Of a stretch of DNA of 64,000 nucleotides, positions 15,574-54,448 are shown in pieces. The notes under the pieces were generated by a model, which worked only from the letters and a program-made list of their open reading frames with translations, made no database searches and was not told where the DNA came from. Source of the stretch: Aquila chrysaetos chrysaetos (Eukaryota > Chordata > Aves > Accipitriformes > Accipitridae); NCBI RefSeq assembly GCF_900496995.4, contig NC_044018.1, positions 29,554,047-29,618,046 on the forward strand. Reading direction: 5' to 3'. The position numbers were made by a program, and so were the translations under genes. Every line of letters begins with the position of its first letter. Position 1 is the stretch's first letter.

Positions 15574-15800
15574 GTAGAATCATAGAATAGAATCATAGAA
15601 TCATTTAGGTTGGAAAAGACCTTCATGATCATCGAGTCCAACCATCATCCATGCCCACTAAACCGTGTTCTGGAGTACCCCGTCTACGCGCTTTTTGAAC
15701 ACCTCCAGGGACGGTGACTCAACCACTTCCCTGGGCAGCCTGTTCCAATGCCTGACAACCCTCTCAGTAAAGAAATTTTTCCTAATATCCAAAATATACG
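15574..15800 (-). mobile_element. CR1 LINE, 5'-truncated 3' end
   Basis: Minus-strand orientation. The 3' terminus is marked by agaatcatag/aatagaatcatag, the inverted form of the ATTCTATG repeats that end CR1 elements. Before it comes the typical tail with ggttggaaaagacct and catcgagtccaacc. The upstream part still encodes the end of the CR1 ORF2 product on the minus strand, with DIRKNFFTERVVRHWNRLP and EVVESPSLEVFKKRVD. Homology stops abruptly near 15800, so only about 230 bp of a 4-5 kb element is present. This 5' truncation is normal for LINE insertions. Confidence 0.93.
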
Positions 15801-16980
15801 AGATCCCCTCTCCTCGCCAGCCCCCTGCCCTGCTCACACCTCCCGTGCGGCTCAACCCTGTCCCAGCTCGGAGCCGCAGCATCTCCCCCAGCCCTTTGCA
15901 GCACGGCTGCAGCTGCGGGTCCCCCCAGAGAGCCCCTCGCCCCGCACGGGCCAGCCACGTGCCGGGCACAGCTTGCGGGGACGAGGCACTCGGCAGTTCC
16001 CACCGGACTCCCGGCAGCAGCCGGCGTGCGAGGCTGGGGGGACGGAGAGGCACTGAGCTGTGCGAGGACACGTGGAGCGTGGGGTCCCCGTGCGAGGGGC
16101 CGCGGGGAGGAGAGGTTTCGATGGCAGCCAGAAGCTGTTTGGGGTTTTTAGCGCAGCTGGGAAATGAGGACTCATGGGTGCTGTTGGGGCAGAGTCACGC
16201 ACACCCCCGCTCTCGGTCGGGGGGACGGCGTAGAGGGGGTGAAGTCAGGACGCCCACGTCCCCTGTGCCTTGCTTTCACGGAGCAGGCGGGACGCGTCCC
16301 AATGTCTCTGCACGGCGCGGAGCCGACCCGCGTGTGCTTGCACGTGCACGTCTCCACGTGCGCATTTAGGCATTGCTCACAAGAGCGTGCGCACACGCAG
16401 ACCTGCACAGGACAACGCGTCGGCATGTATGTGCGCGGTGCGTCAGCGTGCACACGTGCAAAGGGTTGCCTGCACGCGTCTGTGCGTGTGCGCGTCACGT
16501 TCGTGTGTGCGTGCCTGTATGGGCACATCCATGTAGGTGCACACATGTGTGCGTGTCTGGGGCAGCACGTGTGTGTGACGGTGCATGTTTGCGTGTGTGT
16601 CTATGCCTGTGTGAGCATGTGTTCTTGACGTGCATCCCATGAAAGCCGGGGCCAGACAGGCAGAGCCCCGGGGCAGAGCCAGCAGCAGCTCCATGTTAAA
16701 ACGCACCCACCCTCGCCCCGCAGCTGAGCCCACCGCCACCCATCACCCCCCATGCCTCTGGAGATGACCTTCCCAGGGAGTCCCTTCCCAGGGAGTCCCA
16801 TTGGCCAGTGCTGGTCCCATGGCCAGCACTAGCCACCAGCAGCCAAGCCCTCGGGTCAGGGATCCCAGCTGGACCCCAGCACGGGTCATCTGCTTCCCCC
16901 CAAGCAACCCCTCACCACCACCACCATGCTCAAGACCACAGAAAAGGAGACGACAGCCCTGGGGCGATGCTGCTTGAAAC
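15801..16980. other. Intergenic, no gene recognised
   Basis: GC-rich sequence between the CR1 fragment and the end of NEUROD4. It contains a second alternating CG/CA tract at about 16320-16640. No gene seen. Confidence 0.6.
16320..16640. repeat. Alternating purine-pyrimidine (CACGTG/TGTGCG) tract
   Basis: About 320 bases dominated by acgtg, gtgtgcg and cacacg words, similar in character to the tract at 15.2 kb. Likely Z-DNA-prone. Not coding. Confidence 0.8.
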
Positions 16981-18620: not shown

Positions 18621-19616
18621 CTATTCGTTGAAGATGGCGTTGAGCTGAGGCCCGGCCACGTGGTGTGGGTAGGACTCATAGCTCATGTCTATGGGGATCT
18701 CGTAGCGGGGCACTGTGTTTTGGAAGTGAGAGGCATGTCCATGTGCTCCAGCCAGGCTGACTGAGGGATAGTGGGCCATGAAGGTGTAGGATTTATCCAG
18801 GTCTGGAGACCCATCTTGCTTCAAGGAGAAGTTCCCGCTGATGCTCAGGGGCGGCGTCAGGGGACCCTCATAGGGGGGAGTGGTGCAGTCAGAGGGATGG
18901 TTTCCAAAGGAAGCATCCACCAAGCTCTTGAAGGTCGGAGGCTTTAAATGCAGCAGATGTGTTTCCATGGTCCCATAGGGTGGGCTTGGGAGCCCCGGGG
19001 ACTGGTAGGTGAAGGAGTGGCTGGATATGGCCGATTCACACACCGGGGACTTTTCTTCATGCTTCTCCAGGAACAAGGTCTGCGGTCCCAGCTGCAGACA
19101 GCCAGCCACCAGGTTGCTGGTGGGCTGGGACAAGCCCTTGCAGAGCATCTCCACAAAGCTCTTCCCTTCAGGAGTCTGCCCCGTTTCGAGCACCTCAGAC
19201 AGAGCCCAGATGTAGTTCCTTGCAAGCCTCAGTGTCTCAATCTTGGACAATTTCTGAGTCTTGGAGTAGCAGGGCATCACCCTCCTCAGGTTGTCAAGAG
19301 CATCATTCAGACCGTGCATCCGTGTGCGCTCCCGGGCATTGGCCTTCACCCGCCGGGCCCTGAACCGCTCCAGCCTCGCCTTGGTCATTTTCTTCTTCTT
19401 TGGTCCTCTTCTCTTCGGCTTTTCCCCATCATCCTCTTCCTCCTCTTCTTCCTCAATGCTGTCATGCTCTTCATTCAAGCCAGACATCAATCCAAAAGGA
19501 CCTTGCCTGCTGTCCTCTTCCTTCAGCTCATCTTTGGAGCTCAACGTTTCGTCCATCCAGGCTTGGGTGCTCACAAGCTCCGCCATCTCTTTGGGCTTGG
19601 CATACGTCTTGGTCAT
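18621..19616 (-). CDS. NEUROD4: Neurogenic differentiation factor 4 (NeuroM/ATH3), bHLH activator
   Basis: Nuclear E-box-binding transcription factor that dimerises with E proteins and drives neuronal differentiation, notably in retina and CNS (family knowledge). The single coding exon encodes 331 residues, the family's usual length. Acidic run around residues 54-63 ([10 protein letters not shown]), basic [11 protein letters not shown] at 66-76, then the bHLH at about 88-142: basic region [19 protein letters not shown], helix 2 [20 protein letters not shown]. The NeuroD-family C-terminal domain follows ([19 protein letters not shown]). It ends PQLNAIFNE. The ATG at 19614-19616 is the first in frame after a consensus acceptor (TTTGTTGCAG, exon start 19625), so only nine leader bases lie in this exon. 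Intact, no anomalies. Confidence 0.98.
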
Positions 19617-19625
19617 CTCTGATCT

Positions 19626-22470
19626 CTGCAACAAAGGGACAAGGAGACGTTAACGAATTCCAGCAGGAGAGTTGCTCAACATGTTGAGGGCATTAAGAAC
19701 TGAGGGCATTAAGAACTGACGTCAAAATCATCTTCCAGAAGCATCAACTGCTTTCTGTCCACCAGTGGTACCTACAGAATCTATTTATCCATCATCTACC
19801 TATTTAGCTATCTACAATAATTTCTGCTGAATTTTTGGGGGAGCCACTGAAGCCTCTCCCTGGGGCCCATCAGCTCTTTTCCAGGGCTCAGGGTCTCCAG
19901 CAATTCAATTTTGGGATTATTCCCAGTCATGAGTCCCTCCCCTCATGGCTTCAACCCTGATTGTCACATTGTGGGTTGCAAAAGGGAGCCTGAAACTAAA
20001 GGTCCTCTGCTGAGCTGCCTCTGGAGATTTTCCTGCCTGAGCTCTTCTAACCCGAGCACATTTGCTTGAACCTTCGTTTCCCTCTGCCATAACGAATGCA
20101 GTCACACCGCACAAACCAGCCTAGGTTTCATGTTAATCAGCTCCCCAAATCCTGTCATCGTGCCTGACTCATTTAATAAAGCTTAGCATCTAAGCAGCTT
20201 TGCTGAAAGTGTGCTGCCCAAGCCCTGGCTCCACTGCCCCTGTCCACCCCATTGGAAAATCCCACTTTTAATATGCGTGATGGGGCTTGAGGGCTGGATT
20301 AGGGTGTTAATTGCTGCGCACAGCCATCGTATCCCCAGAGGACCATGTGGCCCCAATTAGCTCTTCGGCAGAGTAATAGGGGTCTGTCAGATGCTGGGAA
20401 ATCTGGTGGGCGAAGGTGGTGAAGGACCATCTTTGGGACGAATGGATGGGTTTGGCTAAGCGGGGATGGAGCGGGTCCAAATACTTTCTGCCAGCATCCT
20501 GGTGGGACCGCAGGGCTGCACCTACCTTGTGTGCTGAGAGCAGCCCAGAAACAGCTTCAGATCTGCTCCAAAACCCCTCCAGGCTGCAGTCTGAGGGTTA
20601 CTTTCACTCCACCCTTGGGGACCTGTCCCAAATGCAGCATCCCTGCCTGCAGCTCTCATCCCTTGCTGGTCTTGTCCACCAGAATCCATCCCAGAAGAAA
20701 ATCACCAGGTTTGGGGCTCTGTTCAAGGAGCGAGCTCAGTGTCTTCCCCCCTTCCCTGCACTTTGTGGTGCAGTATTCCCATGGAAATGTTTCCAGAGGT
20801 TGTCTTTTTGAAAATCCAGTTTGAATTTGTAGGGATTTTGCTCTCTTTCTCCAGAATACTGATATTTTAAAAGGGGGGGGGGGGGGGGGGGGGGGGGAGT
20901 AGAAAGAGAGGGAATTGCCTGATGAAGTCACTCTGGTAGTTTCCCAGTTTCCCAAGTAAGGAGACGGTGGGAACCCACTGTGGAATGGGAAGTTTATCCA
21001 GCCCATTATTTTGGATACCTTTCATTTTCAAACATCTCCAGCCCACATTGTCTAAAAGAACCACAAAAAACCCATTGCAGGAAAAAGCCTGCCGTAGCAG
21101 GCTTGAAAATTTAATTCTCAAGTAGGGATGGCTCAGCTCAGAGCAGAGGCAGATGCTCTCTTTCCCTTTGTGTCACCAGGCACCGAGCTCCCATCCCGAA
21201 ACAAGTGGGTTCAATTCCCTCTCCTTTCCTGTAGGACCAGGAACTGGGTTTTAGCCCTCCACTGGTTTCCTTCCAATGGACTCAATCCCCCAAAGGAGGA
21301 CAGTTGGTTCAGGACAAAGACTCACCAACTCCAGCCCTGCACAGCCCCTGGCACGTAGACCCTGACCCCAGACACGGCCACCCAAAGCCGAAGAAACACA
21401 GAGGGCTGGGGACGGGGATGCAGGAAAGGTGCTGGCATGAGAGCCAGGGTCAAAGTGGGCAGCTGGGGCTCGGAATTCATCATGGAGAGGGGCAAGCGGA
21501 TCAAGACACCCCCAAGCAGACCATGAAAATTAGGATTTACTTGAGACCTCTGCACCGTATCCTGCCTGGGAACGCAGCAGGATGTGGCCCAGCTGTACGT
21601 GGAGCCAGTGGGCTCTGGCTGCAGGGCGGATTAAAACCCTACAGCTGCTCCATCAGCTCCAGCACAGCCAACGAGGTGGCTTTGGGGACACGGTGTCAGC
21701 TGAGTCCTGAACCAGGGGATGCCCAGAGCTCCCAGTCCCACTCATGGTCCCAGTCCCACCCTCAGCCAACTGGGGCAGGGGAGAGAGGATGGGCTGACAT
21801 TTTTTCGGAGGGGGGGAATCTGCTGAAGGGCAGTCCTGCAGCAACCACACAGACCTGGAAAAGGAGGAGGAAGGTGAGGGATGCTGCTTTCCTCCCTGCT
21901 GGGGTCCCAGCCCCGGGCAGGACTAGCTGGGGAAGGGGCTGTGCTTGCAGACCACCGGGTACCCTGACCGGGCTGCCCTCCCCGGGCTGCCCCCCCCCCC
22001 AGGAGCGGATTAACAAAAGCCGGGATTTGGGGCAGCTCCTTCATCACCTCCTTCACCTTCATCACCTCCAGCCCCAGCAAAAACCTAGCCCCGACGTGGC
22101 CAAGGGTGGCCGGCCCCGCTGCCAGCCAGTGCCCAGTTCCGAGGCAGGGAAGACCCCCCCCCAGCACCGGGGTGTCCCCCCCCCCGGCCCCGGGGCTACG
22201 GCTCCATCCCCGACGGCTGCGGGGAACCGGGGCGGGGAGGGCGGCTGGAGCTCGGGACCACCGGCTCCATCCCACCCGTCGCCCCGCACCCCTCGAAAGG
22301 CGCAGAGTCCCCCCGGGACGGGGTCCCACTGCTCCGCCGTCGGGGCAGACCCCCCCCCCGCCCCTTCCACCGTCCCGGAGGGTGGCCCGGGGAACCGGGA
22401 GCCCCGTCGAAGGGGTCGACACGTCCCTTCGGGTCCCCAAACACCCCCGGGGGTCCCGGTCCGCCCTTAC
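19626..22470 (-). other. NEUROD4: NEUROD4 first intron (inferred)
   Basis: Runs from the acceptor before the coding exon to a consensus donor at 22470 in the CpG island. The AT-richer part 19700-20360 next to the coding exon could hold regulatory sites; a 17-base duplication (gagggcattaagaact) lies at about 19687-19718. No coding exon seen. Confidence 0.45.
20873..20897 (+). repeat. Homopolymer run of 25 G
   Basis: Uninterrupted G25, the longest homopolymer in the window. G-quadruplex-prone and a likely site of length error or polymorphism. Confidence 0.95.
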
Positions 22471-31430: not shown

Positions 31431-32435
31431 CAGGCAGCCCCCCCCCCCCCCCCCCCAGCCCCGCCACAGGCAGGTTTTTGGCAGAGCAGGGGGGGATGTC
31501 AGAGCTGTAAATCCAACACGCCGGTCCCCACAGGACCTCCATGCGGGGTGGGGGGGTGGGCAGACACAGCTGCATTTTGGACCCGGGGCCATGGCCAGGG
31601 TGGTCCACAGCTGGGGACAAGGAGACCCTGGGCAGGAGAACCCCCCTCCCCAGGGCTGGTGACCACCCCCTCGATGATGAGTGACGGGAAAGGGGTGAAA
31701 GCCGTTAGCCCCAAGGAGGACAGAAGATGCTGGATGTGGCAGGGGTGGCCAGCCTGTCCCCATGCACGCCCCAGCCACCCAATGTCACCTTGTGTCCCAG
31801 CCCTACTCATACCCAGAGCACCAGGACCTCCCCAGAGCGTCATCATCATCCCCTGCACCAGAAGTGGGGACACCGAGCTGGGGACCACCAGCAGCCTGAG
31901 TGGCAGGTGTCAGTCGGGAAGGGGGAGGGAAGAGCCCCGGGAGCTAACGAACTCTGCTAATGAGGGACAGAGCGCCTGGCACTCAAGCCCTGTAAGGGGA
32001 ATGAGAGCTTGGGGACAGAGAAATCTTGTGGGTTGGGGTCTTGGGGTCTGTTTTTTGCAGGACAGGCTAAAGGCACAGCTGGGCACAGCTGGATCCAGCT
32101 GAGCCCCTGCAGTTGGAGGGGTCCCAGGAGGCCTGGGAAGCAGCGGGGTGGTCTCCATGCCAGATACGGACTGAAGACCGTGACCATAGGGCTGGTGGGT
32201 GTCCTGGGACCACCACGTGTGGGATGGGTCCCTGGGGCTCAGCTGGCACCAGTCCCCGCCACGGGCACCTGAACCGAGTCGAGGGAGACTCGGTTCATTT
32301 AAAGCAGCTGCTTCCATCTGGCAGCAGGATCGTACCCTGGACTAGACCACAGCTGGGCTGGCTTTCAATCCCTCACGGCCACAGGTTACAGGCAAACACC
32401 AGGCAGGATGAGACAGGCAGCAATTAGGGGTTTGC

Positions 32436-32441
32436 TTTATT
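32436..32441 (-). terminator. Possible polyadenylation signal of the small secreted gene
   Basis: AATAAA on the minus strand about 0.8 kb beyond the predicted stop. If used, the 3'UTR would include the 21-bp minisatellite at 32783-33017. Confidence 0.4.
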
Positions 32442-32782
32442 GGTAGCTTTGGTCTGGAGCGATGCATGCATGTGGTGCAAGAAGAGCCGTGGGATGAGCT
32501 GGGAGGCAACCAGACCTGGCGTCAGGGAGCTGCGCGATGCTTGTGCAGAGCCAGGGATGCTGGGAGGGAGGAGAGGGACGCATCCTGCTCCCCAGGGAGC
32601 ACGCTGGCACCCGGGGCCAACCCTGGGAGGGAGCCCAAATTGCACAATGGAGGGGGAGCCAGTCCTGGGTCCTCCACTGCCCCAAAACCTGCTCTGAGTC
32701 AGCCCTCCCAGCCCAGCGCTGACTCCAGACGAGCTGCCGTGACACACAGAGACGTGGAGGTCCCTGGTGTGGGATCAGGGGA

Positions 32783-33017
32783 GGGTTGGTGGGATAGCTG
32801 GGATGTCTGGTGGGATGGCAGGGTGGTTTGGTGGGATGGCAGGGAGGTTTGGTGGGATGGCAGGGAGGTTTGGTGGGATGGCAGGGAGTTTGGTGGGATG
32901 GCAGGGAGGTCTGGTGGGATGGCAGGGAGGTTTGGTGGGATGGCAGGGAGGTTTGGTGGGATGGCAGGGTGGCTTGGTGGGATGGCAGGGAGGTTTGGTG
33001 GGATGGCAGGGAGATTT
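32783..33017 (+). repeat. 21-bp minisatellite (GGTTTGGTGGGATGGCAGGGA)n
   Basis: About eleven copies of a 21-base unit, one shortened to 20. A multiple of three, it keeps frames open (NLPAIPP repeated on the minus strand); this is not taken as a protein. It lies between the last predicted exon of the small secreted gene and its possible poly(A) signal. Confidence 0.95.
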
Positions 33018-33224
33018 AGATGCTCAGTGCTCAGGGCAGGAGCAGAGAAGGAGCTGGGCACGGTCCTGGGCAGCCATGGGAGGTGGTGGGGGCTCCCAGT
33101 GCCCCCAGGAGAGCATCCCCCCACCCAACCCCCAGCCCTGGAGCTGCATCCCTGCCAGTGACAGGACACGCCGTGTCCCCAGACTCCCCCGGGAAGGAAG
33201 GGACTTACTGTGCTGGCTTGCTGG

Positions 33225-34318
33225 TCACCTGGAAGAGAGGAAACACCTAAGAGAGGAAACACCTAAGAGGTAAGACCTGGCCCAGTCCCACCATCCCACC
33301 CTCATGGGAGCACCCAGCCGGCCCCCCAGCACCCACCCCGCTACAACCCCCACCAGCACCCAGTGCAGCGGGGTGGGAAGGAGCCAGGGACGCCTCTCGG
33401 GGCGGCAGCATCGCCGTCCCCGCTGACTGCGGCAGAGCCCTCCCGTCCCCCATTGCTCCCCCTTCCCCACTCACCCGATGAGGCTGGAACTCAGACCCTT
33501 CACCAGTGTGTCCAGCAGGTCAACGGTTAGGGCCAGCACTCCTCCTTCACCCTCCTTGGCTGCCTCGACATCTGCGGGAAGAATCGGGGTTACCCGAGCA
33601 CCCCGATGTGCCACGAACAGGGCGCTCCTCCTCCCCTCCACGGTACCTCCCACCCACCCACCGAAACCGGTGGCCCTGACGCCCGGCGCGTCTTGACCCT
33701 TGCGCTGACACCCTGGCCAAGGCCACCAGCCCCAAGGGAGCTGCCTCTCGCTGCGGGGTCTGCAGGGAGCCGGAGCTGCTCAGACCCCATCTGTGCCATG
33801 CGGGTCCGACCCACACGTTTCCCCACCTGCCTAGGAGGGAAGAGAGGGATGCAGGAGCATCCTCACCCTCCAGGAACAACCCCACCTTCAGAACAAGAGA
33901 AAAAAACCAAAGATTTGCCATTTTTTGGAGCGCTCGGGGTCTTTGAGGGGGGGTCCCAAAGCTCTGCCTTGCAGCCTGGCCACCGGACCCCCTGGGTGAG
34001 CAGGATTCACATGCAGGACCCCTAACTCACCGGAGCTTCCTGAAGACGTCTCATCAAGAGGAACTGCAGGAGGAAGAGAGAGACGGCATCACCCACCTCG
34101 GTGGGGTGTCAGGACCCCCCACCGCACACAGGACACCCCCCACTCTGCACCCAGCCCCTTGCACACATCTGGATGGCCTGACCCCCCCCCCTCCTGCACC
34201 CCATCGGCGACCACCCCAGTGTCACCCCGCATTCCCGCGGGGACATGCCCGACTCACGGCCAGCAGCCAGGCTGCAGACGAGCCCGGCCAGCAGCAAGGT
34301 GACCCAGAGCTTCATCAT
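33225..34318 (-). CDS. Small secreted peptide, GLYCAM1/LACRT/DCD-like candidate (about 64 aa)
   Basis: Not recognised as a named avian gene. Minus-strand exons: 34258-34318, 34031-34063, 33475-33571 and 33225-33228; phases 1, 1 and 2 agree and donors are GTGAGT-like. The peptide begins MMKLWVTLLLAGLVCSLAAG, a clear signal peptide. A short acidic/Ser-rich linker follows (LPLDETSSGSS), then DVEAAKEGEGG and a C-terminal amphipathic helix (VLALTVDLLDTLVKGL) ending SSSLIG. No cysteine in the mature part. A TATA box lies 70 bases before the ATG. The last exon has two possible acceptors made by a duplicated pyrimidine tract; both give a stop within six codons (64 or 68 residues). Mammals have GLYCAM1, LACRT, DCD and MUCL1 between PPP1R1A and TESPA1: also signal peptide, acidic/Ser-Thr middle, amphipathic C-terminal helix, several tiny exons. 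Orthology is inference; the exon reading is direct. It could instead be an unrelated secreted peptide, and additional small exons may be missed. Confidence 0.6.
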
Positions 34319-34386
34319 CCCGGAGGATTTCAGGTGACGACCACAGCCGGGGGCCACCCAGGGATGAGCCGGGCTGGGGTCTGTCC

Positions 34387-34395
34387 CTTATAAAG
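34387..34395 (-). promoter_or_regulatory. TATA box of the small secreted gene
   Basis: cttataaag, 70 bases upstream of the predicted ATG, placing transcription start near 34360. A CCAAT motif lies at 34406-34410 on the plus strand. A TATA promoter without CpG island fits a tissue-restricted secretory product. Confidence 0.65.
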
Positions 34396-34907
34396 GCAGC
34401 AGGCACCAATCGGCCTGGACTGGGAGGGCTCGGAGGTGCATGGGATTTTCCAGGTGTGGGAAGATGCCCGTGCCCGGGCGCCCCGCCAGGGGCAGGATTA
34501 GCCCGGATTAGCCCCGCAGCCCCTCCGGGCAGCACAGCCGGTCCTGCTGCCAGCCCCAAGAGCACCCAAACCAGCCCCAGCCCCATTCCCAGGACTCCCA
34601 GCCCTCTATGTTCCAAGCAATTCCCGAGTCCTCAAAGCCCCAACAGCTCGTGTGGCTCCATGGCTCCCACTCCACATCATCCCAGTGCACTCCATACCAC
34701 CCCAGTACACTCCATAGTCCCCCAGTACACTCCTGTTCACCCCACAAGCCTCCCATGCCCTCCCACACACCCCATACTCTCCAAGCCCCCCCCAGCTCAC
34801 TCCATAGCCCCCTGCTCACTCCCCAGCCCCTATACGCTCCTCGACTGCCAGCCCCCCAGCCGCAGACCTTTCCTGCTCATCACAGAGCACTTTTTCGGCT
34901 CCAGCAC

Positions 34908-38731: not shown

Positions 38732-41700
38732 TCAGGCCGTCTGGTCAGTGCCATGGAGCCGGGCAGCAGGCGGCTGGCCGGACACCGGCTCCTCCACGAA
38801 GCCGCTGCTGTCGGACTGCCCGCTGCTGGTGTGCAGCATGAAGCCTGGAGCAGGGGGACAGGGGGGACACGGTGGGGGACACACACACTGGCACCGGGCA
38901 CCCGCTGGGCTGGCAGCACTACTGCCCTTGGTGCCCCCCAAGAGGGTGGGAAACCCCCACAACTTACTTCTTCGGATCCCGATGGAGGGATGGAGGGACC
39001 GGACGGCTTCCTCGCGGGCATCGCCGTCATCATCATCCTCCTCCTCACTGGCGCTCAGCACCTGCAAGGCAGGACACGGCGGGGCTGGGTGAGGAGCTGC
39101 ACCGGGTGAGCATGTCAGTGCACAAGTATGCACGTGCAAAAGTGCATCAGCACGCGTGTGTACACCCATGCATCCCTCTGTGTGCGTGTGTGTGCGTGCA
39201 AGGATGCTTGTGCATGTGTGCGAGGATGCTTGTGTGTGTGTGCGAGCCCACGCAGGCGTGTGTGCGTGCGTGCGTGCACAAGAGCCGGCCATTGCGCCCG
39301 TGACCCCAGCTCCCCCCTGCAAGAGGCTCCATTTGAAGCTCTAAATCATTCAAACCTTAAAAGCCTGAGAACACTCCGGGGACATTTCCCGCTCCAGCTC
39401 CTTCCCACCGCACGCTGGCTCAGCCAGCGTCACCTGCCAGCCGAAGGGACCCCCTGTGCTGCTGCCCCCCTCTCCCAGCCCCCTCCTGCCCCCCACCCCT
39501 CTGCGCCCATCACCTGGGCATCGCACCCTCACCTCCTCCATCTCGAAGGAGTCCACAGGTTCCTGCCGGCTGGGACGGTGGGGCGAGGGGCCCTTCCCAA
39601 GGGTCTGCAGCCCCGATGCGTCGCCTTGTTGCCACCCGGCGTCCCTCAGGGGTCCCCCCCGGCGCCAGCCCCTGCTCCGCCGAGCCCGGTGACCTCCAGC
39701 TCTTGGTGTTTCTGAGCCGGGGGAACGTGCCCCAGCGGGGTCCAGGGGGTCATCCGGATGGCACCCACGGTACCCTGCCTTCCTCCTGGGAGAGGTCCCC
39801 CAGGAGCCGGAGCCGAAGCCGGAGTCCCCCTCGGATCCCAGCCCCTCTGGGTGCTCAGGGGTGACCCACATCTGGCCGGAGTGGGGGGCCACGGGAGCCG
39901 GCGTTGCGGACGAGGTGACATTCGCAGCGGCGTCTGGCTGGTTCTCCTCCGTGCTGATCCGTCCTGCTCCCACGGGGCACGGAGCATCCCCGGCCCCCTG
40001 AGCCAGCCCCGCAGGGCTGTCACCGCTCCCCCCGCCATGGGGACAGGACCGCTCCAGGTGTCCCCGTGCAGCACCCACCGGTGTCCCCGCTGGGGCTGGC
40101 CTCGGGGATGGCTCCCGCTCCCCTCCGCAGCACGCCAGGGCATCCACACCACCGTGACGGGGACACGCAGGGACGCCCTGCACCGGCCGCAGTGACGGTG
40201 GCACCGGGGGGGTCCCCTCTGCTCCCCGCTGGTGCTGCGCCATCCCGGCACCCCCATCCCTTCCCCAGCCCTCGAGGACATCGGCCGGATCGAACCGAAA
40301 CCTCTCCTCCCTCGCCCGCTCCAGCACCTCCTGCACCACCTTCCCCATGGCACTGGGCTGGCTGGTGGGCACGGTGGGCAGCCGGCTGGTCCCCCGTGGG
40401 CTGTCCTCGTCCCGCGGGGACGTGTAGAGGCACATGGTGGACACAGCCTTCTTCAGGCGCTCCACGGGCGAAAGGGTGCTGGGCTGGGTGGGAGCGACGC
40501 GGATAGCGGGGACGTCGGTACAAGCCCAGGCGAGGCGGGAGGGGGAGATGCGCTGCACGGGGGTCCGCGAGACGTAGGAGTAGAGGCAGAAGAAAGCGTC
40601 GGCCGTCGCAGCCAGAGCCTGGACCTGCTGGAAGCGACCTGGAGGGGCCAGAAGGAGTTGGGGGGGGGGGGGGTGTCGGGGGGGGGCTGTGGGGTGAGGG
40701 ACGCTCGGTGAGGCAGGGGGCTGCAGCAGGGGCAGGGTGGGCTGGGTGTGTTCTCCCAGCTCATGCATGGGGAAACTGAGGCACGGGAGCGTCTTTCCCA
40801 CCACCTCAAAAGAGCAAAGCCCGACCAGCACGGTGGATCCCACCCCATGTGTCGGTGTCTCCCCGGGCGGGGGGCCTGGGGACGCGGGTGTCACTCACTG
40901 GCCAGCATCAGGCAGGGATCCTCCATCTCCATGCGCCGCACTTGGGCCTTGAGGAAGAGCTGGAAGTCGATGCCTTTGGCACGGGAAGGAGCCGAGAAGA
41001 AGCGTGCGGGGATGCGGGCCACGGCCTCCGGCTCGCTCTGCACGAAGCCCAGGTTGTAGAGGATCTCCTCGGCGTCCGCCTGCCACCAGTCCAGGACCTC
41101 GGAGATGCTGCGGGGTGGGGGGGGGGGGGTAGCCCCAGCTCAGCCCCACAGGGACCGGTCTCATGAGGGGGTGACCCGACAACCCCCTCAGAGACCCTCC
41201 CAGCTCCTACCTGGAGCTGGTCTTAGTGGTGAGGCTGGAGAGGGCACTGGACGCCATGCTGTGCCCCAGGTTGAGGTGCTTGTCCCGCAGAGCTCTGCGG
41301 GCAGGGAGGGGGGACGAGGCTGAGCGAAGGGGATGCTGCCAGCGGGATGCACGGGGACGGTGCCCCCAGGCCCCCCGCCAGCCTCCCCCAGGCCCCCAAA
41401 CCTCACCTGCCCGTGGCCTTGTCGCTGCCCGGTAGCAAAAGAGCTGGGAAAAGGGAGCAGAGAGGCGGCAGGGAGTGAGACGGGGTGTTTTGGGGACTGG
41501 TCCCACACTCGCCACCCTGGGAGATGTTCTCCCCTGCAGCCACAGCCCGCAGCCCCAGGGGATGGAGAGCGTGGGGACAGTCCCCTCTGGGTCTGCTCCC
41601 GACTGTCCCCAGCTCCCCGGTCTCCGCCGGGTCAGCTCTGCCCGTGGGGTGACAGTGACACCGCAGGAGGGGACACCCCAGCGTGCCCGGAGGTGGTTGG

Positions 41701-44335: not shown

Positions 44336-47300
44336 GGAGGGAGGAAACTCATCTGTTTTGAAGAGGAAATTAAAAAAATCAACAGCGAAACCTCAAACGT
44401 TGACCCACATCCGCTACCACAACGGGAAAAACTTAATGAGCTGCCGACGTGGGCGAGGGTGGCTAATAATAGCCCCGGTGCCAAGCAAGCCACCCAGGTC
44501 GCCCTTGCCGTGGGCGAGAGGGCACCCACCTTCTAGAGGGGTCCCCTGCACCCCGCCTGCTCCAAGGGTGGCTGGGACACCCCAATGGGGAGTCCCGAGG
44601 CCCCGAGGTCTCCTCGGTGGCCGGCACCGGGTCCCCAAACAGCACAAGGTGCCGGGTGGGCTTTGCACGGGGGGTGTGAGGAGGAGGAGGGTGCTCTGCT
44701 TCACACCCTGCAGCGCCCGGCTCCCTCCCGGCCGAGCATCCCAGGGTCCAGCACGCCGTGCCAAGCTGCCGATGCCACCGCTCCGTTAAAGGAGCGCTGG
44801 ACGGGCGTGTGGCACGCGTGGCTTATTGCCCGCTGGCCAGGCTAGCCCAGCGCGGCCCCGATAAGGGGACCCAAAGCAGCACTGCCCAGGGTTGGGCTGA
44901 TGGGGTGGCTCTTGGGGTGACGGGTGAAGCCACCCCAGGTTTGAAGGGTGACAAGGGGGTGATGGAGGCAGTTGTCCCCATGGGTTGTTTGCCAAGTCAG
45001 GATGGCACCTCCAATCCCACCCTCCAGCATCTCCTCCAGCACCGGGATAAAAGCACCCGGTGACAAGGACGGCCCCACCGAGGACATCCCTGATGCAGGG
45101 ACAGCACTCACCTCCAGCGGGGACATCACAGCCACCGAGGTGACATCCCTGGTCCCTCATCCGTCCCTCCGGGTCCCCCGGCAGCCGGGTTTCTGTGCTA
45201 ATCTCAGCCGGGAGCCCGGGCACTGCCCCGTCGTGAGCCACAATCCCGTCAAAAAAGGCAAGGAAGCACCCGGCACGGCGCTGGCTGGGAATGGTGCTGC
45301 CCGCGGGAGGGATATTTTTAGCCCGCGAGTGTTTGCGGATAAAGCCCTGAATTAACCGTTCCTTCAGCCTGCCCAGGGTTTCGGGGAGGGGGGAGCCCGG
45401 ATGACTCGGGAGTCGCTTCGCCCAGCACATCCCCTGCGAAGGATGGGCCACATGCCTGCTCAGCATCGCCCCTCGTCTGGCTCCGCTCCGGGGTGGGAGC
45501 GGGAAAAAGACCTCGTTCTGCTCCCTGGTCACATCCAGCGCCCACGACCAAGCAGGGATGCCTGGGGGGGGGGGGCACAGACCCCAAGGGCCAGGGGACA
45601 TTTCGTTTAATGGCCAAGGGACCCAGGATGCCACCAGGGTCTGAATATTGATATTTCTGGTGCTGATGGCATCCAAACCCCAAGCAGGAGTCGGCCCATG
45701 GACCATCCTCCATCTCGACCAGTTATTCCCCCCCCGCAAACGCCTTCGCTGGGTGCATGCAATGCTCTGAAGATGCTTTTACCTCCCCGCCGGCCCGCCC
45801 CAGCCTTTCCCCACCCCCCCCGCAGCAGCAGCCCCAGCCGTGGGGAGCCGGGATGCTTAGGCTGGATCGAAGCCGGGAAGGGTTTTCCCGTAAAAGCCCA
45901 TCGAGGAGCGAAATGGCTACGGGCAGAGCACGGGCGGGCAGAGGGATGCGCAGGGATGGGGACCCCCCCTCATCGTTCACCATAGGGGTCCCTGGGGAGG
46001 AGGGGGACCCCCCACCCAGAGGAGCAAGGACCCCAAAGGCAAAGCAGCCGAAGGGGCTTTGACCCTCAGGGTGGAGGAGAGGGTTGGCCGCTGCACGGAG
46101 CATCCCTGCGGGGAGACACCCAGGACCGGGCAGGATTAAACCCTGGGAGCAGGGACAGCCCATGGGGGGGGGGGGGTCACCAAGCAGAGCCGGAGGAGCG
46201 GGGGGAGACCGGGGGGGCTGCTGGTGCGGGGATCCAGGGGTGGGCACGGTGGCACGAAGCAGCTCTTCAGCGAGTGCTTTTTATATCAATAATTAACAGC
46301 GGCTGCATCACGGCGCAGCAGGACACCAGGACACGGCCCTGGGGAGCCACCGGGATAGGGGGGTGCAGAGGGGGGTCATGGGGGGTTTGGGGGGGTCCCG
46401 CTGCCTTTTCACCCCCTGGACCAGGCCAGGGAGCACCCCGCTCCTCCAACAGCAGCAGCACCCTTGCCCAGACACTCAGCACCCTGAGGCCACACGCTGC
46501 TGCCAGCATCCCCTTTCCACGATGCCCCGGTGCCCCCCTCCATGGGGACCCCCCCCCCCAGCACCCACTCTGTGCATGGTGGGGGGCACAGCCGGGGCAC
46601 CCAGGGGATCAAGCAGCCCTTGCCGCTGCCCCCCCCCCCCCCCGCCCCTCCTGCCTGACCTAGTTAGCAAATTCCTCCTGCCAGATCCCGGCAGCAGCCG
46701 CCCGGGCCTCCTGCCTGCATGAATAAGTGATGGGACACGCATTTATGGCTGTTGCGGGGGGGGGGGGGCCCTCCCCGACCCCCCCCGCATCCCCTGGGGC
46801 TCTCCCTTCCCTGCCCCAAGTCTTGGGGGCTTTGTTGGGGTTGGGGGGTTCTTAGGGGATGGGGGTGCATCACGCCTGGGGATGCAGCCCTATGCCGGAG
46901 ACCTGGGGCAGGGTGGGTGGCGGCAGCCCCCCGTGTGGGTGGGGGCACCCCGCAGACCCCCACCCCGCGGACCTCCCCCACCCTGTGCCCCCCCCAGGGA
47001 TGCTGCCCACCCCCACCCTGCCCTTAAATATCCTCTTTTTTAGGGCGTCCCCGCCAGCTCGCTGCCCACAGCATCCATATCCCCGGGATGCCCAAGCCCC
47101 AGCGTCCGTGTTGTCCCTCTGTCTGTCCGTCTGTCTGTCCCGGCCACCAGCACAGGGGCCGACCCACGTCCCCTCCCGGGCCATCGGGGCCAAACCACCG
47201 TCACCCCACCGCCATCCCTCCTCAGACGCAGCCGGCGGGGGGGGCCAACACCGCATCAAGCCCCCCCGCCCCGTTATCCTGCGATTAACGGCCTCATTAG

Positions 47301-47689
47301 GACAGACAGACGGACAAAGGGGCGCAGGGCTGGCCGGACACACAGTCCCCGAGAGCCGCTGGCCGTGTCCCCAACCCCGGGAGGCCGAGCGCGGGCGATC
47401 GATGCGAAAGCCGCCCCATGTCGAAACGGGCGCTGCCGGACTTTGCCCGCGCCCTGCCTGCACCCACCGGGGGCTGACGGAAAGTCCCGTGTGTGTCTCC
47501 CCCCCCCCCTCGGTGGGTGCCTGTCCCTGTCCTTGTCACCCACCCCGGGGAGGTGGCTCTGCCTCGTCCCTGCCAGGCTGCGACACGTGTGCGGGCACGG
47601 GGGTGCACGCGTGTGCACGCACGCGTGTCTGCACGTGTGCGTGTCCGAGTGTGCAAGAGCCTGCGCCCGCCTGTCGGCGTCTGTCCCTG

Positions 47690-48895
47690 TGTCCGTCTGT
47701 CCCGGTGTCCATCTGCCTGTGTCCGACTGTCCCGCTGCTCGTGTGTTTGTCCCCACGTGTCACCGAGTCCCGATGCCCATGTCCGGGTGCGTGTCCTGGT
47801 GTCTGGCAGTCCAGGTGTGTGCCCCTGTGTCCATGTCCCTGTCTGTGTGTCCGTCCCTGTGTCCGTGTGTCACCCACGGGTCTGTCCTGGTGTCCCTTTG
47901 TCCATGTGCCTCTGCGCCCCGGTGTCTGTCCCAGTGTCTGTCCTGCTGTCTCTCTGTCTGTCCCAGGGCCTGCCTGTGTGCCCGTCCTTGTTTCCCTTCT
48001 GTCCCCATGTCCTGGAGTTTATCCTTGTGTCCGTGTGTCCTGTCCCCTTGTCCCAGGGTCTGTCTGTGTGTCCATCCTTGTGTCTGTCCCTGTGTCCTGG
48101 ACTCTGTCCTTGTGCCTGTGTGTCTGTCCCTTTGTCCCGGGGTTTGTCCATGTGTCTGTCCTTGTGCCCACGTGTCTGTCCCCGTGTCCTGGGATCTGTC
48201 CCTGTGTCCGTCCTTGTGTCCATGTGCCTGTTCCTGTGTCACAGGGCCCATCCGTGTGTCCATCCTTGTGTCCGTGTGTCTGTCCCTGTGTCCTGGGGTC
48301 TGTCCGTGTGTCTGTCCTTGTGTCCGCGTGTCTGTCCCTGTGCCCAGGGCCTGTCTGTGTGTTCATCCTTGTGTCTGTGTGTCTGTCCCTGTGTCCAAGG
48401 TCTGTCCGTGTGTCTGTCCCTGTGCCCTGGGTGCATCCATGTGTCTGTCCTTGTGTCTGCATGTCTGTCCCTGTGTCCAGGGTCTGTCCCTGTGTCCATC
48501 CTTGTGTCTGTGTGTCCCTGTGTCCTGGGGTCTGTCCGTGTGTCTGTCCATGTGTCTGTGTGTCTGTCCCTGTGCCCAGGGTCTGTCCATGTGTCCATCC
48601 TTGCGTCTGCATGTCTGTCCCTTTGTCCTGCGGTCTGTCTGTGTGTCCGTCCATGTGTCTGCGTGTCTGTCCCTGTGCCCAGGGTCTGTCCGTGTGTCCA
48701 TCCTTGCGTTTGCGTGTCCGTCCCTGTGTCCAAGGTCTGTCCGTGTGTCTGTCCCTGTGCCCTGGGTGCACCCGTGTGTCTCTGTGTGTCCGTCCATGTG
48801 TCTGCGTGTCTGTCCCTGTGCCCAGGGTCTGTCCGCGTGTCCGTCCTTGCGTCCATGTGTCCATCCCAGTCTCCCAGCGCATGGTCCCAGTGTCC
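47690..48895 (+). repeat. Large ~51-52 bp minisatellite (GTCTGTCCCTGTGTCC-rich) upstream of PPP1R1A
   Basis: About 1.2 kb of tgtccgtgtgtctgtccttgtgtct-like units. Landmark tccgtgtgt recurs at 48251, 48303, 48354 (variant) and 48405, giving 51-52-base spacing, with some shortened copies. The strand is strongly asymmetric (pyrimidine/GT on plus). It ends only about 200 bases before the PPP1R1A ATG. The repeat explains open frames of several hundred codons on both strands. Confidence 0.95.
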
Positions 48896-48939
48896 ATCCC
48901 CGTGTCCCTGCGTCTCTCCCGGGGAGGTCCCACCGTCCG

Positions 48940-49099
48940 TCCGCGCGCGCCGCGGCGGGGACCGGGGACCGGGAGGGGACCGGGGGACCGGGGGCGGGGT
49001 CGGGGCTGGGCGGGGCCGGGGCGGGGCCGGGGCGGGGCGGCCCGGGCAGGGCCGGGAGCCGCCGGGAGCCGCCGGGAGCCGCCGGAGCCGCCGCCCGCC
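48940..49099 (+). promoter_or_regulatory. PPP1R1A: PPP1R1A promoter / 5'UTR, GC-box rich
   Basis: Repeated ggggcggggccgggg Sp1-type boxes immediately upstream of the ATG, within a CpG island that continues into intron 1. No TATA box. Transcription start probably lies between 49000 and 49060. Confidence 0.6.
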
Positions 49100-52000
49100 A
49101 TGGAACCCAACAGCCCCCGCAAGATCCAGTTCACGGTGCCGCTGCTGGAGCCGCACCTCGACCCGGAGGCGGCCGAGCAGGTGAGGGGGGGACCGGGGAC
49201 CGGGGACCGGGGACGACACCGGGGCTGCGCGGCTGGGGGAGAGCCGGGTGGTCCTGCCGGGGACCGGGCCGGGGCGCGGGGGGGGTGTACCGGGCGGTGT
49301 GGGAGGCTGCGGACACGGGAAGGGCACGGACCGGGGCGGGGGGGGGACGACAACCGAGCAGCCCCGGTGCGACCTCCCCGGTGTTGGGGCGGTGGGGGCA
49401 CCCCTGGGTGCGGTGGGTGACACGGGGACGGCTGCGGCGTGGAAGGACGCGCCTGGCTGCTGCCAGGTGGGTGCAGCCCCCCCACACCGCCCCCGGTACC
49501 GGGGACACCCCCGGTGCCACCCCCCCCCACCGCCCCCGCGGAGGAGCCCCCGCTGCACCCCAAGCACCTCCGTGGGCTCGGGGCTGCCTGATGCCGTGGG
49601 CAGGACGGGGTGGCCGTGGGGACCGGGGTGGCCGTGGGGACCGGGGTGGCAGTGCCAGGGCCATGTGCTGGCTCAGCACGATGCCTCCTGGGCCATCCCG
49701 GGGAGGGGGGGGGGGGTGTAGGGTTACGGGCCCCCCCCGGGGCCCTCCAGCCCTTGCTCAACCCCTGTTCCCGCTGGAGGGGATCCCAGAATAGCAGCGG
49801 GGACGGGACGGCCCGGCCGGGGGACACGGCAGAAATGCCCACAGGCAGCCGGGGACACCCCCCGCCCCGGGCAGCCCGACCCCCTCTCCTTGCCCACTTC
49901 ACCCCACTCTGGCTGTGCCCCCCAACCCTGGGGGCTGCAGGGGACAAGAGGGGTTTTGAAAGGACCACCCGGCCACACCACGGTCCCCATCATCACCAGG
50001 CGTGAGAAGCTCTGTGGGGGCTTGAGGATGCTGATGGTGGGGGGGGGGTCCCAGCCGTCCCCCCACCAGGCTGGGGGTCCCCGGCAGGCGGGTGGCTCCT
50101 GGCCGAGGAGCCCCTGCATGCCAGCGGCACGGAGGCGAGCGTGGGCCGCCTCCCCGGCGAGCATCTCACTGTCGCTAAATACGGCCACGCACCATCTGGG
50201 GCTGCCGCACGGCTCATTTGCAGCGCGGCCCCCCCAGGAGCGAGGGCGAGAGCCGGGGGGGGGGCTGCTGGGTGGTGGGCGTGAGACCCCCAGCACCCGC
50301 CTCGGCTGCAGTGAGGAGTACGGGTGCCCGCATCCCACCTCCCGTCATGGCCGGGTTACAGGGGGGCTTGGGCATGACCCTGCTCTGGGGAGTCCCCTGC
50401 CCATCCCTGCCTCAGTTTCCCCTCCCAGGGGAGTTCAGCCACTTCTCGGCGCCTGTCGGAGCCCCAGTTCGGGAGCACTTGGTGGTGTGGCAGGGCCCCG
50501 ACAGCCAGCCTCGGGCGGTGGCAGCAGGTGACGATGCTGATGTCCCCTCCCTGCGTTTACAGCTCCCCTTTTTTGGGGTGTCCCTGCAGGGGAAGACCTG
50601 ATGGGGGTTCCCCTCATCGGGGGCTCACACTGTTGGAGGGCTTGGCTGTGTCAGCCCCTTGCCAGGCTGTGGCACGGTGTCCCTGTGTCCTGCAGGGTTG
50701 TCCCCAAGCCTGTCCAGCCCCACCCTCCAAAAGGACCTCGTCCCCACGGACCTTCTGGAGTCCCCTGTGTGCCCACAGGCCCTGTGGCTCCTTGACCCCC
50801 ATCTCTGCCAAGAGCATCCATCTGCCCTGGCCCTCCTGGATGCCACCCATGGGTGCCAGGCCTGGCCCAGGGCTTTGTCCTGCATCTCTGCCTGGGTGCC
50901 CAACTCCACCCTCAGCACAGTGTGTCCCCAAGGCTGGAGGGGACGATCCAGGGGTGTTTGCTCCATCACGCTTAGAGATGAGCTGGGCCCATCCCGTTTC
51001 CATCCCTGATCCCATTCTGGTCTCCAATCCCGTTCCCATCCCAGCTCCGCCCTGGGATCAGCCCCCACCCCAGGCCCGGTGGGAGCAGCCCCCCAGCGAT
51101 GCTGTGCCCGCCGCAGGCTGCCAGGGCCGGGCTCCTGCCGCTCTCGGCCGTGGCGCTTCTTAATCGATGGTGGAGATTGATCTAAAAATAGCGGCAGCGG
51201 GAGAGCGCGATGCCCTGGCCAAGCTGGGAAGGGAGGGAGGGAGGGAGGGAAGGACGGAGGGAGGACCGGAGCATCCCTCCCCAGGGCGTCGGGGCGGGAG
51301 CCGCCCAGATGCCTGGGTCCCCCACCCAGTCCGGAGCGGGAAGGGGAGTGCAGCTTGGGGTGCTCAGCTCTATCTGGGTGACCTTGAGTGGGTGGCACCG
51401 TTGTCCCCCACTCCATCCCCAAGCCGGGGGGCTAGTCTGTGGGGCACAGCCCTGCCCCACACCTAGGGGAGACTTTGGAGGTGCTAGAGCAGCCCGGAGG
51501 TGGCTCTGGCTTCCCCGGGGTCCATCAGTAGGGGCTGCAGGGCCGGATCCAGCTCTGGGGGTTGCCTGACCCATCCCAGCCCCATCGCTGGGTGTCTGGG
51601 GGGGGCGGTGGTTGGACCCCAGCCCCGGAGTGGGGGGCTCGTCAGCAGGTCCCTGACGGGGAGAGGGCGATTCCGGGCAATTCCCGGCAATTCCCGGCTC
51701 CCTCTAATCTCCGTTTAAAATCCAGATCGCGGGTTTCTATGGCAACGGGGCCGACACGGAGAAGATGCTGCGGGGGGCCGGGGGTGGGCTGGGGCCGGGG
51801 GAGGTGGGGAGGGGGCTTCCTCCGCCCGCCCAGCCGCTCACCCGCCTCATTAGCATCTCATCAGCATTTCATTAGGCATTCCGCCTCATTAGGGAATCCT
51901 CGCTGGGAAATTCATTTTTTCGGAGCAACTCAGTTAGTGGGTCAGCGGGGAAAGGGGGCGAGGGAGCACCCGCAGGGCACCGTGTCACCGCTGTCACCGC

Positions 52001-54448
52001 TGCCACTCCTGCCACTGGACACGGCCACGCCACGGCCACCGAATCCTCCAACGGGGCCACAAAATCCCCCTGAAGGCGCTGAGCGGGGGACGTGGGGTGG
52101 GAGCAGCCCGGGATGCTCCAGGTGACCTTGGGCAAGGACACTGTGCCCGCAAAGGAAGGGCAGGGCCCCGGCAGTGTCACCACACCGATGTCCCCGAGCG
52201 CTTCCTGGGGCTGGGGTATAATTAGCTCCCGGCTGTCATTAGGGCTGGCCGGGAGATGGTGATTTAAAAGACACATGTGTCCGGCCACGGGAGCCGCTGG
52301 GCTCGGGGCCCTGGCCGGCATCCTCCATCCCCATGGGGCCACCACTGCCCCAGGGACGAGGACATCGGGGGGGGGGGGGGGTGTCTCGGTGCTGGTGGGG
52401 GTCCGGGTGGGCGCGATGGGATTCGGGGTACAGCCGCAGGTCCCGACTCTTTCCCGTCCGTCCCCCCCCCCAGATCCGGAGGCGCCGACCAACTCCTGCC
52501 AACCTGGTCCTGAGCAGCGACCAGTCGTCCCCAGGTGGGTCCTTGCGCGTGTCACCCTGTCACCCCAGGCTGCAGCCCACCCGGGGGTGCTCAGGGACCC
52601 CCATACATGATGCTCAGGGACCCCCATACATGATGCTGAGGTCCACAGCACACTGGTTGCAGCGGGACTCATCCTGCACCCTGCCACAACAGGACCCTGT
52701 GTCCCCCACCCTGGGACTGTCCCTGTGTGTCACCCAGCCCGGCTCAGCCCCTGCCCTCCCTGCTCCAGGGCTGCGTTTCCAGGATCCGGCCCCGGGTCTC
52801 GCTCAGCCCATCCATCTCTGGGAGAAGCAGCTGCCCGCGACACCGTGCCAGGGACACTGGGGACAACGGCACGGGGCCACCCCTGCTGGCACGGGGAGCA
52901 GGGGACACCAGCTGTGACATTTAAGATCTTCTCGGTCACTGGCCCGACCAGGCATGTGGCCTTTGGGGACGGGGTCTGACCCGGCTGGCAGCTGTGTCAT
53001 GGCCTCCCTGCCCCCCCCCCCCCCCCCCAGCTGGGGGTGGTATTATCTGTCCCCTGCTTTGGGGACACCCCGGTGGCTGGGAGACTCTGTCCCCAAGTGC
53101 CACCTCCAAACCCCGTACCCACTCGGGGCAGCAGGCTCCGGCTGGGAATAAATCAGCTCCACGGGGTTGAGCATCATCCCGGGGAAGGGGGGGGGGGGGG
53201 TGTGTCAGGATGCTGCCGGGGGGGGGGGCTGCCAGCCTGGTGGGGACAGGGACACAGCAGGGGACGGGATGCTGGTTCCCGTGGCAACGTGGGGGGCATG
53301 GCGATGCTGGGGGGGGGGGGGAGCGGGACTGTCCCAATGGCACCCACAGCCACGCCGAGCACCCACGGGTGATGGGCCGACCCAGCGGGGCCGGGTTCAC
53401 GTTGGGGGTGCAGGATGGAGCCCAGCACCCCGCTCCCGCCGCTGACCTCTGGTCCTTCTGCCCCCCCCCCCCCACCCCCCCGGCTGTCCCCCCCAGAGAT
53501 TGACGAGGACCGACTGCCTAACCCCCTGCTGAAGGTAGGTGCTGCTGCCATGGTGGGGGGCTGCGGGGAAGCCCCCAGCCCCTCGGGGTGCCCCCAGGGT
53601 GCCCCCCACTCACGCACCTCCCCTTCCCTCGCAGTCGGGTCTGGCCATGTCACCCAGGCAGAGGAAGAAAGTTTCCCGCACCACCCCGACCATGAAAGGT
53701 ATTTTGGGGGGGGGGGGGGGGGCGACACAGGGGGTGACGGTGTGTGTCCCCCCCCCCGGTGACGAGCGGGAGGGATGCCACCACCTTTGCGCTGGCCTTG
53801 GACCTGCTCAGCCGTGCCCAGGTCAGGAGCGTGGCTGTGCCCGTGGGCACACGGGGTCCAGCCGTGGCAAATGCCACCAGAGGGGACAGGAGGCCACCAA
53901 GCTTGCCGGGCTACATCTCCCCGGTGTCACCGGGAGCGTGGGGACGGTCACCGCGTCGTCGTCGTCCCCCCCACCGCCACCACCGCCACCACCACCCCAG
54001 CACCGCTCCCTGCCTGGCAGAGCTGCAGATGATGGTGGAGCATCACCTGTGCAAGCAGGCGCAGGGCGACGAGGAAGAGGAGGCAGCCGCCGCCGCCGCC
54101 GGCCAGGAGCGTGGCCCTGGCCGCTGCCACCACAGTGACACCGAGCACAGCCACAGTCCCGGTGGCACCTGCCCGCTGGCCACGCACGAGGGTGGCCCCG
54201 GTCCCGGCGAGCGTGAGTACCTCTCCTTCCCAGCCCCGCGAGCCTCCACGCACCCGGAATTGGGGGGTTTGGGGGTGCTGGGATGGTTTGTGGGGTGCAG
54301 CGGGGGGGGTGGGGGGGGCGCTGAGCTCACCCCCTGCCCCACGGCACCCGCAGGGACCCACGGAGACGAGCGGCAAAGCCTGGCCGAGGAGGGCACCCAT
54401 ATAGCACCGAAGGAGGCCAGCGGCAAGGGTGCTGCCAGCAGCCAGTAG
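49100..54448 (+). CDS. PPP1R1A: Protein phosphatase 1 regulatory subunit 1A (inhibitor-1)
   Basis: Cytosolic inhibitor that blocks PP1 catalytic subunit when phosphorylated by PKA (family knowledge). Six coding exons: 49100-49180, 52474-52534, 53497-53534, 53635-53698, 54021-54212, 54354-54448; frame closes, 176 residues (human about 171). MEPNSPRKIQFTVPLLEPHL begins the protein; KIQF (8-11) is the PP1 docking motif. IRRRRPTPAN places the PKA site at Thr34. MSPRQRKK places the CDK5-type Ser-Pro site at Ser66. TMKELQMMVEHHL follows, then a divergent Glu/Ala-rich tail ending GKGAASSQ. Intron 1 (49181-52473) is by far the largest. The stop TAG is directly followed by GTACGT, a consensus donor, so the 3'UTR probably lies in a further exon. 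Convergent with PDE1B. Confidence 0.97.
51733..51746. promoter_or_regulatory. RFX X-box-like site in PPP1R1A intron 1
   Basis: gtttctatggcaac fits the X-box consensus with a perfect ggcaac half. It sits in an AT-richer islet (51690-51930) in the intron, a plausible intronic enhancer. Confidence 0.35.
53275..53288. promoter_or_regulatory. RFX X-box-like site in PPP1R1A intron 2
   Basis: gttcccgtggcaac, a strong match to the X-box consensus, between coding exons 2 and 3. Confidence 0.35.

Follow-up and report, generated by a model that had tools for sequence, protein, structure and literature searches.

The window analysed here (C15:29554047-29618046 of a 1.23 Gb genome) comprises 64,000 nucleotides and contains, in order, NEUROD4 on the minus strand, a putative gene for a small secreted peptide on the minus strand, TESPA1 on the minus strand and PPP1R1A on the plus strand. 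The names of the three neighbours rest on their Pfam families and on what we take to be their usual neighbourhoods. An earlier note on this DNA had placed the peptide gene between PPP1R1A and TESPA1. This was not borne out; TESPA1 separates the peptide gene from PPP1R1A, and the interval in question is thus that from NEUROD4 to TESPA1. Both TESPA1 and the peptide gene are read from the minus strand and the latter lies at lower coordinates, i.e. 3' of TESPA1. The features of the locus are the following, in positions of the window.

18624..19649, minus strand: NEUROD4 open frame, the neighbour on the other side
32420..32559 (end approximate), minus strand: possible terminal exon, with acceptor 32559 (score 6.8) and AATAAA at 32441-32436, then a T/G-rich stretch
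33209..33228, minus strand: exon 4, noncoding after the TGA; possible donor ACA/GTAAGT
33475..33571, minus strand: exon 3, 97 nt, phase 1 to 2, encoding DVEAAKEGEGG and the amphipathic helix VLALTVDLLDTLVKGLSSSLIG; the TGA comes next in the 64-residue model
34031..34063, minus strand: exon 2, 33 nt, phase 1 to 1, encoding LPLDETSSGSS
34258..34318, minus strand: coding part of exon 1, with signal peptide MMKLWVTLLLAGLVCSLAAG and a phase 1 donor, GCC/GTGAGT
34388..34392, minus strand: TATA box (TATAA), 74 nt 5' of the ATG
34406..34410, minus strand: inverted CCAAT box (ATTGG), putatively functional
34442..34451, minus strand: kappaB-like motif GGAAAATCCC, putatively functional, may be chance
34495..34511, minus strand: two CTAATCC motifs, starts ten bases apart, putatively functional
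40514..41115, minus strand: TESPA1, KRAP_IP3R_bind exons 41115-40894 and 40639-40514 (Pfam)
49103..52536, plus strand: PPP1R1A, exons 49103-49186 (first) and 52471-52536 (Pfam DARPP-32)

Some further elements of the window deserve mention. Exons of a XendoU-type endoribonuclease are located left of NEUROD4 at 1701-3346 (Pfam XendoU, one frame with E 1e-24 and one below cut-off). A minus-strand frame at 15661-16194 carries RHWNRLPREVVESPSLEVFKKRVD near its end, and is presumably the tail of a CR1-type LINE, an element common in birds. On the plus strand, an open frame of 854 residues (46856-49420) with repeats rich in V, C, S, L and P runs into exon 1 of PPP1R1A; there is a strong AT skew at 48001-50000, and the frame seems to be a GC-rich repeat rather than a gene. 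A search of the window against Rfam at gathering scores gave no match.

Gene model and alternative 3' ends

Translation from the ATG at 34318 through the coding exons 34318-34258, 34063-34031 and 33571-33475 gives an intact open frame of 64 residues, MMKLWVTLLLAGLVCSLAAGLPLDETSSGSSDVEAAKEGEGGVLALTVDLLDTLVKGLSSSLIG, followed by a stop, which agrees with the length of about 64 residues proposed in the earlier note. The product begins with a signal peptide, continues with a Ser-rich acidic stretch and ends in an amphipathic helix of 22 residues. The junctions are 34258/34063, 34031/33571 and 33475/33228, and the intron phases are 1, 1 and 2. The same stop is reached whether the last intron is spliced at 33228 or retained, so that three exons suffice for the coding part. 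Splice sites were scored using home-made tables of consensus frequencies, not a trained model, which gave 6.9, 4.3 and 10.1 for the acceptors and 0.5, 6.3 and 6.4 for the donors. The junctions and matching phases of the four tiny exons described earlier are confirmed. The description of their splice sites as good is generous for exon 1, since its donor, with an intron side that is perfect, has a C at -1 and reaches only the lowest of the three donor scores.

The previously noticed TATA box is present (34392-34388). Upstream of it, the two CTAATCC copies occupy 34511-34505 and 34501-34495, and it is possible that this pair is a K50 homeodomain control site; the names K50 homeodomain-like and kappaB-like are those we take to apply to such motifs.

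Exon 3 can be joined to three acceptors, giving products of 64 (33228), 70 (33246) or 108 residues (32559), and the C-terminus is uncertain for this reason. The 70-residue form, which appends CFLSSR, is less favoured because acceptor 33228 outscores 33246 (10.1 versus 6.9). In the 108-residue form exon 3 is joined directly to 32559, a pyrimidine-rich acceptor with AATAAA 118 nt past it; this form is less favoured because the AATAAA would sit within its coding frame. The 64-residue form is the one we favour, tentatively on sequence alone. The candidate terminal exon at 32420..32559 would accordingly be either noncoding or the final 44 residues of the 108-residue form. A noncoding 3' end is plausible, in which the donor ACA/GTAAGT at 33209/33208 (score 2.96) would be spliced to acceptor 32559 ahead of the AATAAA at 32441. 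Both longer splice forms are nevertheless possible, and the 108-residue one would be close in length to dermcidin, which has 110 residues.

Directly downstream of the peptide gene lies a 21-base minisatellite (32779-33017, 11.4 copies). It has long open stretches in minus-strand frames, with heptads resembling SLPSHQT or LPAIPPN, and is probably noncoding; one frame of it was compared with Pfam and gave no match. A coding extension into this array was considered and rejected, as exon 3 continued through either of the two stronger acceptors ahead of the array, 33246 or 33228, stops before the array is reached.

Evidence for a gene

Every ATG on both strands of the window (128,000 strand-bases) was scanned for a signal peptide, using a home-made score and not SignalP. 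The classic signal peptide claimed earlier was recovered with the highest score in the window, 40, at two adjacent ATGs of the peptide gene. Seven starts passed a score of 26, and among these only the two ATGs of the peptide gene are followed by an in-frame donor and preceded by a TATA box. In 120 simulated windows (third-order Markov, 128 kb each, signal-peptide cut-off 30 or more), no signal peptide with both a GTRAGT donor and a TATA box arose, and a signal peptide with such a donor arose twice (0.017 per window). As a control from real DNA, 20 stretches of 10 kb flanking the window on both sides were scanned; these 400,000 strand-bases held 13 signal-peptide-like starts, none with the GTRAGT donor. 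With exon 1 fixed, two further exons that form an in-phase chain like exons 2 and 3 within 850 nt (GTRAGT donors, acceptors scoring 4.2 or more) were found in 2 of 4000 simulations, and for none of the 75 alternative donor/phase starts that the window offers. The thresholds of these tests were fixed after the candidate was known, and the chance figures are consequently guides and not exact probabilities. A loose start-codon pattern searched against the whole genome matched 330 places and was uninformative.

The amphipathic C-terminal helix suggested earlier withstood the hydrophobic-moment check proposed with it. The maximal moment of the helix region, residues 43-64, exceeds that of 4945 of 5000 self-shuffles, the remaining 55 reaching it. 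Its polar side, as read from the letters, consists of D49, D52, T53, K56 and S59-S60, and its apolar side of V48, L51, L54-V55, L58 and L62.

It is unlikely that GC-rich DNA acquired a TATA box, splice-like sites and a run of codons resembling a signal peptide by chance alone: the exon side of donor 1 is weak, several 3' splicings are allowed and the gene is known here from the sequence of one genome alone, but the simulations of start, donor and TATA box, the neighbouring stretches, the exon-chain test and the helix test, which address partly different features, each argue against it. From these sequence features we consider the locus very likely to be a real gene, and its reading as a gene for a small secreted amphipathic peptide to be well supported.

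Probable inversion of TESPA1 and possible origins of the peptide gene

Searches for relatives of the gene product gave no match in Pfam or PDB (both with E up to 10) and, as expected, none in the viral and prokaryote collections. Within its own genome the product matched two places, both of them exons of the peptide gene itself, and a tblastn search of the window returned these exons first, followed among the matches listed by others from E 0.14 upward. The Pfam GLYCAM-1 family found no match in the whole genome, a search in which the controls were silent as well. The Dermcidin family matched a single stretch at chance level (E 0.55) on another contig, leaving the locus unmatched. When the mature peptide was aligned locally with mature LACRT, DCD, cow GLYCAM1, mouse GLYCAM1 and MUCL1, the scores were equalled or bettered by 646, 416, 1016, 869 and 950 of 2000 shuffles, respectively, although a similarity missed in such short peptides does not prove a separate origin. 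As no sequence kinship was found, the peptide gene is not filed in the GLYCAM1/LACRT/DCD/MUCL1 family. Of the earlier proposal that it may be the sauropsid counterpart of GLYCAM1, LACRT and DCD, the part that describes a small secreted amphipathic-peptide gene stands, whereas the orthology is left without sequence support.

The setting of the gene can be compared with paralogous blocks elsewhere in the genome, where the paralogues are named as we presume them to be. On C6, a NEUROD1-like gene (26.472 Mb, plus) is accompanied by an ITPRID2-like gene (26.383-26.363 Mb, minus) and a PPP1R1C-like gene (26.343 Mb, minus). C3 has a NEUROD6-like gene (31.185 Mb, minus) and an ITPRID1-like gene (31.269 Mb, plus), and C8 a NEUROD2-like gene (1.632 Mb, plus) and a PPP1R1B-like gene (1.618-1.616 Mb, minus). 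The C8 block yielded no ITPRID match. NEUROD4 and PPP1R1A are divergent in the window, as are the NEUROD and PPP1R1 genes on C6 and C8. The ITPRID gene, on the other hand, faces away from NEUROD on C6 and C3, while TESPA1 in the window faces toward NEUROD4. The matched ITPRID stretch on C3 contains three stop codons (intron or decay), which makes C6 the better witness. Given the orientation of ITPRID on C6 and C3, the simplest reading is that the inversion of TESPA1 is derived in this lineage.

In human, LACRT and DCD presumably lie 3' of TESPA1 on its strand, between TESPA1 and PPP1R1A, and MUCL1 on the other strand. A single inversion carrying both TESPA1 and the peptide gene would explain how the location found here can be reconciled with that arrangement. 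A peptide gene inside the inversion would formerly have been placed between TESPA1 and PPP1R1A, on the strand of TESPA1. It could also have been born after the inversion.

That the gene is lineage-specific, having originated within the NEUROD4-TESPA1 interval in birds or a single order of them and resembling the mammalian peptides by convergence only, we regard as a serious possibility which falls a little short of being probable. It is consistent with the lack of any sequence kinship found and with an interval unlike the mammalian one, and short amphipathic secreted peptides are generally known to arise often. The neighbour and the strand relation to TESPA1 do, however, match those presumed for LACRT and DCD.

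Common ancestry with the mammalian GLYCAM1/LACRT/DCD group, located 3' of TESPA1, with one inversion having flipped both genes between NEUROD4 and PPP1R1A, is a credible alternative, held here with reserve. Of the features of the mammalian cluster, the peptide gene shares the position 3' of TESPA1 on TESPA1's strand, presumably that of LACRT and DCD, and the general plan of a signal peptide, an acidic Ser/Thr part and a C-terminal amphipathic helix, a plan that convergence also yields. It shares neither the present location between PPP1R1A and TESPA1, to which undoing the flip would return it, nor a detectable similarity to a member. Against common ancestry stand the alignments that do not rise above shuffles, the silence of GLYCAM-1 and the chance-level Dermcidin match, a 64-residue form that is shorter than every mammalian member, and the chance that the gene postdates the inversion. 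The C3 block is moreover the weaker witness on account of the stops in its ITPRID match, and the C8 block has no ITPRID. The small orphan milk peptide of koala, found together with a LACRT/DCD-like gene near TESPA1, speaks for a shared origin (PMC5054531); the same paper places this peptide 'upstream' of TESPA1, which, if meant in the direction of TESPA1, is the 5' side and misfits the 3' pattern.

We speculate that an ancestral peptide gene 3' of TESPA1 might predate the split between mammals and sauropsids, having been flipped here with TESPA1 to leave a single tiny survivor and expanded in mammals to GLYCAM1, LACRT, DCD, MUCL1 and MM1; we offer this as a tentative scenario. If the origin is shared, lacritin, dermcidin and lactophorin would go back to genes older than lactation and sweating, and the surroundings of TESPA1 would have given rise to surface peptides over a long period. 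This can be addressed in crocodiles, turtles and birds by searching 3' of TESPA1 on its strand, beyond the TESPA1-PPP1R1A interval. Among the matches listed, and in open-access titles and the starts of abstracts, there was no member of the cluster from a bird or reptile, which is weak evidence of absence. Partial texts of locus lists for pig and cattle (PMC8227816, PMC8505495) and of a camel milk paper (PMC6350295) held nothing decisive. The peptide gene itself, if real, encodes a secreted peptide of a kind that annotation by homology is prone to overlook.

The mature peptide and known secreted peptides

A TATA promoter would drive a short multi-exon transcript, and the signal peptide would direct the product into the secretory pathway with cleavage at about residue 19 or 20. 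Counted after residue 20, the mature peptide of the 64-residue form has 44 residues, a net charge of -6 and no Cys. Its front half, acidic and Ser-rich, is probably disordered; its back half may form an amphipathic helix on contact with a lipid surface. The most likely role would be in the film on an epithelial surface (tears, or secretions of skin, mouth, airway or oviduct); there the helix may adsorb to lipid and either steady the film or disturb microbial membranes, as the C-terminal pieces of lacritin do in tears. Given its negative charge, the peptide is less likely to be a classical cationic pore-former. What the sequence displays is an unbroken frame with splice signals, a promoter box and a helical periodicity; that the gene is transcribed and spliced and its product secreted is predicted, as are the tissue and the action. 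We lean, with moderate confidence, towards a functional gene that encodes a very small secreted surface peptide.

Trypsin is predicted to release LPLDETSSGSSDVEAAK, EGEGGVLALTVDLLDTLVK and GLSSSLIG from the gene product. A mass-spectrometric survey of hawk tears, searched against known bird proteins, contains neither the word lacritin nor the word dermcidin in its main text (PMC7412644). The excerpted account of tear composition in birds and reptiles (PMC7256680) adds nothing decisive.

Other families of small secreted proteins do not accommodate the peptide. Secretoglobins have conserved Cys residues in the mature chain and a Pfam domain, while the 64-residue form has no Cys past its signal peptide and no Pfam match at E 10. 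The genes of SCPP secretory phosphoproteins have phase-0 introns only, compared to phases 1, 1 and 2 here. Defensins and cathelicidins are cationic peptides with a Cys pattern or a cathelin domain, and are set aside by the lack of Cys, the net charge of -6 and the lack of a Pfam match.

By analogy, the peptide probably works like those of the GLYCAM1/LACRT/DCD group. We take KIAA0748 to be TESPA1. A list of the human interval, given without strands, comprises PPP1R1A, LACRT, DCD, GLYCAM1, KIAA0748 and MUCL1 (gene list of PMC2997777). Dermcidin resembles the peptide in being secreted, with a helical C-terminus and from the same neighbourhood as far as that list goes, and differs in that its similarity does not exceed that of shuffles and the Pfam family has no match at the locus. 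GLYCAM1 and the marsupial VELP are likewise small secreted gland peptides; according to PMC5054531, their genes have four exons in cow, mouse, koala and devil, and eutherian GLYCAM1 has 141-164 residues as opposed to 64.

Lacritin presumably has an acidic, Ser/Thr-rich front, like the peptide, and a length of 138 residues, compared with the 64 found here. There is no alignable sequence between the two; seen from PPP1R1A, the peptide gene is found beyond TESPA1. Lacritin is also a secreted protein with C-terminal amphipathic helices, pieces of which stabilise tear lipid films; these pieces are cationic, in contrast to the single anionic helix region described here (PMC7948570 for lacritin).

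Marsupial milk 1 (MM1) differs from the peptide in being marsupial, in having 98-99 residues and in being said to lie upstream of TESPA1 (PMC5054531). The koala gene is reported about 8 kb upstream of TESPA1 and adjoining the LACRT/DCD-like gene, and the authors of that paper found no sequence homologue. Like the peptide, MM1 is a short orphan secreted peptide encoded near TESPA1, and a similar antimicrobial role has been proposed for koala MM1 from its surroundings (PMC5054531).
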